IMG/VR virus record: IMGVR_UViG_3300032331_000427
Location: 1-23,760 of that record
From: a virus
Reading direction: 5' to 3' (one strand)
DNA length: 23,760 bases
Shown: positions 17,067 through 19,448 of the stretch, piece after piece
Layout of the letters: the number at the start of each line of letters is the position of its first letter
How positions within the stretch are numbered: position 1 is the first letter of the stretch
Made by a program: the position numbers and the translations under genes
The notes under the pieces: generated by a model
The model's input: the letters and a program-made list of their open reading frames with translations, nothing else
Databases searched by the model: none
What the model was told of the DNA's origin: nothing

Positions 17067-17720
17067 TTACACCGATAGGTTGGAGACAAACGACAGTGTA
17101 ACGATGGCCGAAGGTACTGCTGGCCTGGTTGGAGAAGTGCCTGCCGGATACTGCTCAATCGTCACGCCGACATCGGTAGGCCTCCACATTATTTCTACAT
17201 AGTCGTTTGCGTTAAGGTTGACAAAGAAGTTCATTGCGGCAATTATGTGGAACGGGTCGCCAACGCCTTTTCTTGGTGCAAACCCAAACCTTGAGTTCGA
17301 CTTGTCAATGTTTGTTCCATTCTTTCTAAACCAAACGTCAACGTCTTGAGATGCGTTTGTCGTGTTCGTAAACTGGATAGAAAACTGTACGTTGTAGATT
17401 CCCGACTGCGATACGTTCAGCCTGGATGAGTTTGAGAGCGTGACGCCGTTGCTGAAGTCGGTTGTGTCAAACGTGATGGCGTAGGCTGTTGTGGTGTTAG
17501 CCGCTACCTGGTCTGTGGAGTCCTGGAACGCGCCGTGAGGGGCGTTGATGTACTTGCCTCCACGCGGTCCGAATAACGCTCCCAGGGCGTTTGTGACGCG
17601 GCTGGCGTAGTTTCCGATGTTGCTGAATGTCTGGCTAAAGTACAGGCGGTCATACACCTCGCCAGGGTTGCCGAGATTCGGCTGCGCTGGCGTTGTGATC
17701 TGGCCGCTGTAGTCGCTCAT
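17067..17720 (-). CDS. Virion protein with C1q/TNF-like jelly-roll domain
   Basis: 217 residues. After an N-terminal region (about 1-60) with PGEVYDRLYFSQTFSNIGNYASRV, the rest reads as an antiparallel beta domain: SRLNVSQSGIYNVQFSIQFTN, VDVWFRKNGTNIDKSNSR, FFVNLNANDYVEIMW. This alternation is the signature of C1q-like trimeric jelly-rolls found in phage tail fibres and head decorations. The gene overlaps the endolysin start/stop by 4 bp (ATGA). A receptor-binding or decoration role is plausible; the domain type is the better supported part. Confidence 0.75.
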   Translation of the reverse strand: MSDYSGQITTPAQPNLGNPGEVYDRLYFSQTFSNIGNYASRVTNALGALFGPRGGKYINAPHGAFQDSTDQVAANTTTAYAITFDTTDFSNGVTLSNSSRLNVSQSGIYNVQFSIQFTNTTNASQDVDVWFRKNGTNIDKSNSRFGFAPRKGVGDPFHIIAAMNFFVNLNANDYVEIMWRPTDVGVTIEQYPAGTSPTRPAVPSAIVTLSFVSNLSV

Positions 17721-18055
17721 ACGTTGCGTTCAAAGTGTGGGCAGTCCACCAGCGATCTGAAGTTCCCACCCCACCGATTTTTGGGGTACAGGCTCTCCCA
17801 GTACGCTCCAATCGGGGCCAAGATAGCTTTGTCCCAGATAATTTTCCCGTCCTTGAAGAAGTTCAAGTCCATCGCGCAACGCTTGAGGTGGATGCTGTTC
17901 ATGGTCTTAGACCGTCCCGTCTTGACGTAGATGGCCTGCTGCTCCGGCGTACGCGCCAACTCGCCACCAGTGACCATAAACCCCAGATCTGTGGCGTGCT
18001 GAATCAGCTTGCACATATCCAGCAGGAATGCTGCTTGTTCTTGACTAAGACTCAT
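17717..18055 (-). CDS. Endolysin, M15 (VanY-type) L-Ala-D-Glu / D-Ala peptidase
   Basis: 112 residues. Zinc peptidase M15 motifs are visible: SIHLKRCAMDLNF with His56 and Asp63, and DCPHFE with His107. GGELARTPEQQAIYVKTGRSKTMN before the first motif is typical of phage M15 endolysins. The enzyme cuts peptide links in peptidoglycan to release progeny. Length is that of the minimal catalytic domain, with no cell-wall-binding domain, as in T5-like endolysins of Gram-negative hosts. There is no signal peptide, so it depends on a holin; a holin gene lies directly upstream with a 4-bp overlap. AGGAG lies upstream of the ATG. Confidence 0.92.
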   Translation of the reverse strand: MSLSQEQAAFLLDMCKLIQHATDLGFMVTGGELARTPEQQAIYVKTGRSKTMNSIHLKRCAMDLNFFKDGKIIWDKAILAPIGAYWESLYPKNRWGGNFRSLVDCPHFERNV

Positions 18056-18564
18056 TTTGCGCTCCTCATTTCAGCCAGCTTCTCTACTGTACGGCCACCA
18101 AAATACGCACCCATAATTAGCATTCCCCAGTTACCCAGCAGGGTCACATAGGACTCGTTGGCGTTGAGGCCGTAGGCGCTCATCATGGCAAACAGAAAGT
18201 ACCCCATGAAAATAGCGATCAGGCTCATTGGCCGGATGTTCTTTGAGAGCCATGAATCCGAGTTCATGTCTGCCTGCCAGCGGTCTGTTACGTTATCCGC
18301 ATCACTTTGTGCGGCTTTGGCAAACAACTCCAACTCGGCCATCTCCAACTTGGCCTTCTCGATTCCCAACTCAATCAGACGCTCTTCATGGTGGAACTGC
18401 AACTCGCGCAGCTTCTCAACGTCTGCCGGTGTCGGGTTATCTGGAATCTTGACGCCCAGCGTGTTCTCGACCACCTCCTTGCCTTTGGCCTGGATAGCGG
18501 AAGAAAGCAGCCCCAGACCGCTTTCCGCAAGAGTACCGAGTAGTGCGCCAAGAATTGGAATCAT
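18052..18564 (-). CDS. Holin, GTA-type three-TM family
   Basis: 170 residues. A hydrophobic N-terminal helix (about 2-24), a charged coiled-coil middle (about 45-95) and two C-terminal membrane segments (about 112-133 and 139-157). The phrase SKNIRPM before the second span is characteristic of the 3TM holin family found in gene transfer agents and phages. Holins form pores that let the endolysin reach the wall; the endolysin gene follows with a 4-bp overlap. The start overlaps the previous stop by one base (TAATG), with GAGG 7 nt upstream. Length fits the family. Confidence 0.85.
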   Translation of the reverse strand: MIPILGALLGTLAESGLGLLSSAIQAKGKEVVENTLGVKIPDNPTPADVEKLRELQFHHEERLIELGIEKAKLEMAELELFAKAAQSDADNVTDRWQADMNSDSWLSKNIRPMSLIAIFMGYFLFAMMSAYGLNANESYVTLLGNWGMLIMGAYFGGRTVEKLAEMRSAK

Positions 18565-19051
18565 TAGAGACCTCTGTTAGTGATAACGTGAAACGTGATG
18601 CTGACCAGTGGGACAACGATAGCGGATGCTCCGGATATCCAGAGTGTGTTCATAATGATCGCAACCTTCATCTCTTTGTCCTTCTGCTTTCTTTCTGACT
18701 CTTCTCTTTCCATCGTGTTGCGCTCCTTAATCATCCTGGTGCGCTCTGCCATCATCTCTTCCCAGACCGGAGCATTGCCACTATAGAAGAGGATGTCCTT
18801 TAGCTCCTTCTCATGCTCTCGCAACGCTTTAGATGCCAGTGCGATCTGGAGAGCCTGAGAACTGATTTGTGCATCCGTCTTTCCTATGCTCGCAATCCTG
18901 GCTTTGCTGCTTGCTAGGTGAACTGTATCCGCTGCTTGATAAAAACCGCTGAATTCTTTGTATAGGCCGTGGATATCTTTACCAAGAGCAATGGCTTTTT
19001 TATGCCAGCGACAGCAGCTTGTGCCATAGCGAATGCGGTGAACGGGTCCAT
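18564..19051 (-). CDS. Lysis-region membrane protein, continuous only by -1 frameshift (or one lost base)
   Basis: ATG 19051 opens MDPFTAFAMAQAAVAGIKK. In the same frame this ends at TAG 18914-18916 as a 45-residue peptide. The -1 frame from 18995 continues AIALGKDIHGLYKEFSGFYQAADTV to the stop at 18564, giving a 162-residue protein with a charged helical middle, the motif APVWEEMMAERTRM, and one membrane span near the C-terminus. The join lies at A AAA AAG (18995-19001), the classic -1 slippery heptamer. The joined protein reads like a known phage family that starts MDPFTAFA, so the second frame is real coding sequence. Either programmed frameshifting makes two products, or one A is missing from the run. 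A TTG near 18824 is only a formal start. It lies upstream of the holin, overlapping it by one base. Confidence 0.8.
18995..19001 (-). other. Candidate -1 ribosomal slippery site A AAA AAG
   Basis: On the minus strand the heptamer is in the correct phase (zero frame ATA AAA AAG) so that both tRNAs can re-pair one base back. It lies exactly where the conserved protein must change frame. No strong upstream Shine-Dalgarno-like stimulator or downstream stem-loop is obvious by eye, which weakens the case for high-efficiency programmed shifting. Confidence 0.5.
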
Positions 19052-19218
19052 TACTTCTTATTCACCACCGCCCAGCGGCAGATGCGTCCGTCTTTGTCCA
19101 TAAACTCATTTGCTCTAAGCATCTTGTCCTCATCTTTCTTAGGGATACGACAAACTAAAACTATCTTTGTCTCAGTGCCAGGCCAAGGGCTTTCAGCCGA
19201 GGCAAGCAGAGAAATCAC
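19051..19218 (-). CDS. Small conserved-type protein with GTG start, lysis region
   Basis: 55 residues from GTG 19218, too short and with a non-ATG start. The GTG overlaps the upstream stop (GTGA), and its TAA overlaps the ATG of the frameshifted gene (TAATG). AAGG lies about 9 nt upstream. The protein reads ISLLASAESPWPGTETKIVLVCRIPKK, then a charged helix and GRICRWAVVNKK, with two cysteines and no membrane span. Tight coupling on both sides and a gene-like composition support it as real. I do not recognise a function. Confidence 0.75.
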   Translation of the reverse strand: MISLLASAESPWPGTETKIVLVCRIPKKDEDKMLRANEFMDKDGRICRWAVVNKK

Positions 19219-19448
19219 TTGTCGGCCTTGTTCTCTAGCTTGTCAAAGATTCGCTCCAAGGTTGCGTCGATCTTGTCGAACCGGCTTTCAATGTCTGTCT
19301 TGCTGACGTAGTTTTTAGGCAAGTCAATCTCAATCTGCTTGATGTCTTCCTTGAGCGTCTTGACCGAATCCCATATCTCTTTACACCACCACCCGACGGC
19401 GACCAGGATAGCGCCGCCGATAAAGTTGAACATTGGCTGGAATTCCAT
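19215..19448 (-). CDS. Membrane-anchored coiled-coil protein, lysis region
   Basis: 77 residues. One N-terminal membrane segment (about 8-24, FIGGAILVAVGWWC) is followed by a long charged coiled coil (KEIWDSVKTLKEDIKQIEIDLPKNYVSKTDIESRF...LERIFDKL). The phrase LPKNYVSKTD is typical of small phage proteins found near holins. The layout of one span plus coiled coil fits an i-spanin-like or XhlA-like accessory lysis protein; no partner o-spanin lipoprotein was found. It overlaps its upstream neighbour by one base and the GTG gene by 4 bp. Confidence 0.7.
   Translation of the reverse strand: MEFQPMFNFIGGAILVAVGWWCKEIWDSVKTLKEDIKQIEIDLPKNYVSKTDIESRFDKIDATLERIFDKLENKADK

Follow-up and report, generated by a model that had tools for sequence, protein, structure and literature searches.

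Why should a gene next to a holin-like gene in a tailed-phage lysis cassette be broken into two reading frames? The question is raised by a viral contig (IMG/VR record IMGVR_UViG_3300032331_000427), of which we analysed a stretch of 23,760 nucleotides, here called the window. On its minus strand a 45-codon ORF (18914..19051) opens at ATG 19051, which overlaps the stop of an upstream 55-aa ORF as TAATG, and closes at 18916-18914 (zero-frame product MDPFTAFAMAQAAVAGIKKPLLLVKISTAYTKNSAVFIKQRIQFT, 45 aa). The −1 frame (18564..18995) carries the same protein on from an A AAA AAG heptamer and adds 143 residues, comprising a helical region and a C-terminal transmembrane segment, before the stop TAA at 18566-18564. 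The joined −1 product is 162 aa long (19 + 143), its last codon ending at 18567. The sequence-only reading had already given these lengths and coordinates, which are exact, and had placed the heptamer at the change of frame; we locate it at 19001-18995, where the phase, ATA AAA AAG, is correct for −1 slippage. ORF-finder output for the −1 frame consists of just an 86-aa ORF from TTG 18824, and the full protein is missed by ordinary gene calling across a large group of environmental phages. Published assays in E. coli rank A_AAA_AAG, when accompanied by a stimulator, as one of the three heptamers that slip most efficiently (PMC4066793). We propose, with a probability of roughly 0.92 and judging from comparative sequence data, that a programmed −1 ribosomal frameshift at A AAA AAG makes the full protein; that slippage takes place on the ribosome, and at what rate, we infer.

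Searching the IMG/VR viral contigs with the joined product returned 195 relatives, and of the best 80 loci, which come from about 52 different metagenome datasets, 79 carry the identical junction ATAAAAAAGC. Later searches, pooled, gave 110 distinct clade sequences; the junction is readable in 109 and ATAAAAAAGC is identical in 107 of them, although nucleotide differences within the clade have a median of 18% and a maximum of 30% (92 aligned sequences). A junction common to 107/109 distinct relatives is far beyond chance. Frameshifting members with intact upstream sequence start with ATG or GTG, at the window's position or one codon earlier. The comparison of homologues for a conserved six-A heptamer, which the sequence-only reading had suggested as a check, thus strongly favours programmed shifting. 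That reading had also set against it the loss of one A from a run of seven, whether as a sequencing or assembly error or as a recent inactivating deletion. One lost A does explain the split, since some in-frame outgroup members read ATA AAA AAA GCN. As an error or a recent mutation, however, such a loss is scarcely credible given the identical junction in 107/109 relatives from so many datasets; as the evolutionary origin of the split it may stand. Runs of 7-8 A are recorded elsewhere in the same contig (3306 and 23595), so A runs are not generally lost by assembly. A collection-wide DNA pattern scan of IMG/VR found no seven-A allele of the clade, and among the 102 stretches it matched there is no in-frame clade allele with a normal start. 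No relatives of the frameshift gene were found in bacterial genomes. Since the slip site and a matching RNA hairpin are kept in more than 100 related phages, the split frame very probably serves regulation and is no artefact of sequencing.

Synonymous and nonsynonymous changes were counted by parsimony on the tree (92 aligned sequences). The heptamer codons (17-19, ATA AAA AAG) are invariant in all 92, with 0 synonymous changes against 23.8 expected, and the neighbouring codons use up to four synonyms; across divergent homologues the site is conserved beyond protein constraint, as would be looked for in −1 frameshifting. The nonsynonymous/synonymous ratio per site is about 0.06 overall, 0.09 for codons 2-16 and 0.06 for codons 20-140. 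These values, far below 1, indicate that both halves are under strong purifying selection, which is again at odds with an error or a recent deletion. The synonymous rate is lowered from the heptamer to about codon 55 (observed/expected about 0.3-0.8) and is higher afterwards. This reduction persists in 25 distinct sequences with a zero-frame stop at codon 20 (0.47 for codons 20-28 and 0.53 for codons 29-37), and because it is present where the zero frame has already ended, it points to an RNA signal rather than to overlapping coding.

The zero frame itself is 45 codons long in 75 relatives and 20 codons long in 30. The 45-residue peptide of the sequence-only reading is therefore right as the length of the ORF in the window, whereas the part beyond the heptamer does not hold across the relatives. 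Codons 20-45 of the zero frame were considered as a second coded peptide and rejected, since the frame is already closed at codon 20 in 30/105 relatives and most of the changes in it alter the amino acid. On these comparisons the short product would in essence be the N-terminal 19-20 residues, as the zero-frame tail past the heptamer is unconserved as protein. We also considered that the −1 frame might be started independently, as the second of two genes expressed without frameshifting, which would fit the 86-aa ORF from TTG 18824 that is all that ORF-finders give. Yet in nearly all relatives the first canonical −1 start either falls anywhere between residues 23 and 100 or does not exist, and no such start is common to them. 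Moreover, conservation along the gene is highest at residues 20-45, directly past the junction, a segment through which in-frame homologues run without interruption. An arrangement of two separate genes is thus extremely improbable, and a frameshifted single gene is preferred.

The sequence-only reading saw no strong stimulatory hairpin. Folded one by one, however, most relatives show a long stem that starts 5 nt past the heptamer. In the window (minus strand) it has 15 pairs and a 28-nt loop; its 5′ arm lies at 18975..18989, its loop at 18947..18974 and its 3′ arm, with one bulged base, at 18931..18946, so that 18989-18975 pairs with 18946-18931. Among 56 distinct sequences 94% of the stem cells are paired, against 36-57% after sliding the partner by 1-3 columns. 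The pair formed by positions 8 and 62 after the heptamer (18987 with 18933) is C-G in 28 of these sequences, U-A in 25 and unpaired in 3. Its joint-change score of 0.75 is the highest among complementary column pairs in 240 nt, the next being 0.14, and the joint changes recur on 3-4 branches (4 when the two columns are left out of tree building). The compensatory evidence for the stem comes mainly from this single pair. On two of the branches with joint changes, nearby positions have changed in common as well, so that block recombination is only partly excluded as their cause. RNAalifold run on the alignment retains just the outer part of the stem. The 5-nt spacer lies within the range of about 5-9 nt at which a downstream structure is looked for, though the thermodynamic score is weak: stem stability is not unusual for these codons (mean z −0.76 versus synonymous-codon shuffles, not significant). 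In a small subclade (L346, L286 and L252, with L105 and L123 partly) the heptamer is kept and the stem is degraded.

Members of the clade form on average 14.2 of the 15 stem pairs; in-frame relatives form 8-12 and none folds into the stem. The stem-loop is thus clade-specific and was apparently acquired together with the split frame, and its position and pairing make a stimulatory effect on frameshifting probable. Upstream of the heptamer, inspection of the codon table of 92 sequences revealed no conserved AGGAG-type stretch of the kind a Shine-Dalgarno-like stimulator would have, and a search of Rfam gave no match. A 7-bp pseudoknot candidate was also seen, in which GCAGUUU (columns 46-52, 18949-18943) would pair with GGAUUGC (columns 97-103, 18898-18892), joining the loop and 3′ arm to codons 52-54. 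Both segments are nearly invariant; as a proven element the candidate was set aside, equally good helices being found elsewhere in the gene.

The same full-length protein could in principle arise by transcriptional slippage, since an A added to the mRNA by RNA polymerase at the six-A run restores exactly the same frame. The run here, however, is six and is never longer in the clade, whereas in many bacteria, according to a published genome analysis, runs become prone to slippage at about nine A/T (PMC1088944). In addition, the codon phase, the stem 5 nt downstream and the surrounding synonymous constraint are together the signature of ribosomal slippage. Slippage by the polymerase is accordingly improbable, and we retain slippage by the ribosome.

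How the split came about is suggested by the broader family, which is read in one frame: 75 distinct sequences at about 25-50% identity are continuous, and the relatives inspected at 54-67% identity also have a single frame, several of them reading ATT AAA AAA GCA or ATA AAA AAA GCT. The tree groups the frameshifting sequences in a single clade, from which the sampled outgroups are separate (node support 0.55, branch 0.30). The best reading of these data is that the frameshift is derived within one phage clade, and the most economical history would be that an ancestor lost an A once and its descendants kept the shortened run. Two sequences, L090 (on the same contig as L004) and L091, lack the heptamer and are nested within the frameshifting clade as a derived pair. 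Their junction reads ATC AAA AAG GCC, in frame with the remainder, and both have an extra T near the start (L090, 3001-3477; L091, 223-699: CCTTTTCG), so that these two contigs would need either a TTG start a few bases past the ATG or a +1 shift. Since nested contigs did without the site, the heptamer is not indispensable. The family thus offers a natural before-and-after set, in which the one-frame members lack the stem, one clade has both heptamer and stem, and two nested sequences have given the site up; because it spans all three states, the birth and loss of a programmed frameshift become directly testable. In some in-frame relatives (L425, L374, L392, L369 and L383) ATA AAA AAA GC places an in-phase A AAA AAA heptamer at the same position, which could itself slip and yield a truncated product.

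This history also bears on whether the shift serves a purpose, a matter separate from its occurrence. In a ‘savior’ case, an ancestral loss of one A would have been tolerated as A AAA AAG slips anyway, and the short product would be waste with no regulatory benefit. The probable long A run of the in-frame ancestor, the unconserved zero-frame tail (45 or 20 codons) and the relatives that manage in frame (all outgroups, and L090/L091 at the junction) are consistent with such an origin. Reversion in a homopolymer should nevertheless be easy, and none of the 107 sequences shows it, on a tree that spans 5.7 substitutions per site; the clade-specific stem, moreover, was apparently gained along with the split. 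We therefore regard an accident that was merely tolerated as unlikely, while giving it appreciably more weight than slippage by the polymerase, and favour a frameshift that is of use to the phage.

What that use may be is suggested by the surroundings of the gene. It is the third of five consecutive minus-strand ORFs that overlap stop-to-start: a 77-aa small protein with an N-terminal hydrophobic segment (19215..19448; phrog_462), which is the first of the coupled run; a 55-aa ORF with a GTG start (19051..19218), joined by stop-start overlaps to both neighbours; the frameshift gene; the holin-like gene (18052..18564; phrog_3427, with a weak GTA_holin_3TM match); and an M15-type endolysin (17717..18055; phrog_465, Peptidase_M15_4), which overlaps the end of the holin-like gene. 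The ATG of the holin-like gene overlaps the −1 stop as TAATG, with an AGAGG Shine-Dalgarno-like site upstream. In about 87/93 relatives the overlap of the −1 stop with the start of the next gene (TAATG/TGATG) is kept, and a GAGG/AGGG Shine-Dalgarno-like site precedes that start. The overlapping lysis cassette is probably translationally coupled, and in the window zero-frame ribosomes would stop 350 nt short of the holin start.

The 162-aa product matches phrog_32327 (E 6.4e-10, residues 1-141). A search of PHROGs and Pfam gave it no lysis-family match that would make it a holin or spanin; the next gene has one. A model of the in-frame relative L503 (mean pLDDT 73) is all-helical, with four helices at 3-22, 27-57, 60-91 and 94-159, and there is one strongly hydrophobic stretch near the C-terminus, at about residues 130-157. 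At E <= 0.001 no solved structure resembles the L503 model, whose only matches are phage proteins that are themselves uncharacterised. A C-terminally membrane-anchored helical protein is the best reading, and its gene position suggests a role in lysis.

We envisage that ribosomes would start at ATG 19051 and reach A AAA AAG, where most would continue in the zero frame and stop within one codon (in one lineage) or 26 codons (in the window's lineage). In a fraction, both Lys tRNAs would shift their pairing back by one base, with the aid of the stem-loop 5 nt downstream, and the product would be the 162-residue helical protein with its C-terminal membrane anchor. The likely purpose would be to keep the amount of full-length protein low and in fixed proportion to the ribosomes that enter, within the coupled cassette. 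Because the −1 stop overlaps the holin start, shifting ribosomes would be the sole ones from ATG 19051 to arrive there, and frameshifting could set the dose of the protein and also limit how many ribosomes enter the next gene; this metering may be partial, as that gene carries a ribosome-binding site of its own. More tentatively, the frameshift might be a lysis timer, its efficiency metering holin synthesis via coupling and the full-length membrane protein acting with the holin. The view of the sequence-only reading that dosage sets lysis time may hold here. We consider such a timer possible, at somewhat better odds than the ‘savior’ case and still on the doubtful side.

The programmed −1 frameshift, which is well supported by the sequence comparisons, would be a known type of recoding in a new gene and setting. 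E. coli dnaX uses a −1 frameshift at A AAA AAG with an internal Shine-Dalgarno and a downstream stem-loop. The phage gene resembles it in heptamer, direction and a stem-loop starting about 5 nt downstream, but here the shift would yield the longer protein rather than the shorter one, the loop is longer (28 nt) and an upstream Shine-Dalgarno-like stimulator is not visible. IS3/IS911-type transposases (A AAA AAG with a stem-loop or pseudoknot) share the heptamer, and in them too the shift fuses two frames into a long functional product; their protein is unrelated, however, and the phage gene sits in a tailed-phage lysis cassette. The G/GT tail assembly chaperones of lambda and other tailed phages likewise have a conserved −1 shift that yields two proteins in a ratio, the N-terminal one and a longer fusion, whereas the gene described here adjoins holin and endolysin, has continuous distant relatives and has a short product of just 20-46 aa. 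In RNA phage MS2 recoding is also tied to ribosome access to a lysis gene, but MS2 is a single-stranded RNA phage that relies on coat-gene frameshift/termination and reinitiation, and there is no homology.

Well-established conserved frameshifts of tailed phages lie mainly in tail-chaperone and capsid genes, and one conserved in a lysis cassette would add a new step at which the timing of lysis is regulated. A recoding review (PMC5009743) describes tail chaperones of the lambda type and also cites T7 gene 10, the A2 capsid and the MS2 lysis gene; holins go unmentioned in the text covered. The literature searched, which takes in only a minority of subscription journals, gave no clear precedent for a lysis-cassette frameshift in tailed phages. 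Homologues among the closest known systems are the one-frame MIDP(F/I/V)TA... proteins of phrog_32327 (Roseobacter phages CRP-4, -9, -13, -345 and -603, and podovirus ctYwJ313). They are homologous (E 6e-10 to the PHROG) and have a C-terminal hydrophobic segment, and that of ctYwJ313 lies near holin and M15 peptidase genes as here; unlike the gene in the window, they have a single reading frame without A AAA AAG.

The gene that follows the frameshift gene is itself swapped among relatives, with products beginning MIPILGALLG, MEWLKTIAPT, MSEEKIQAM or MFDILTGGIF (window 18052-18564; L295, L133, L252). It is not always of the same holin type, and the stop-start overlap is mostly kept despite the swap.
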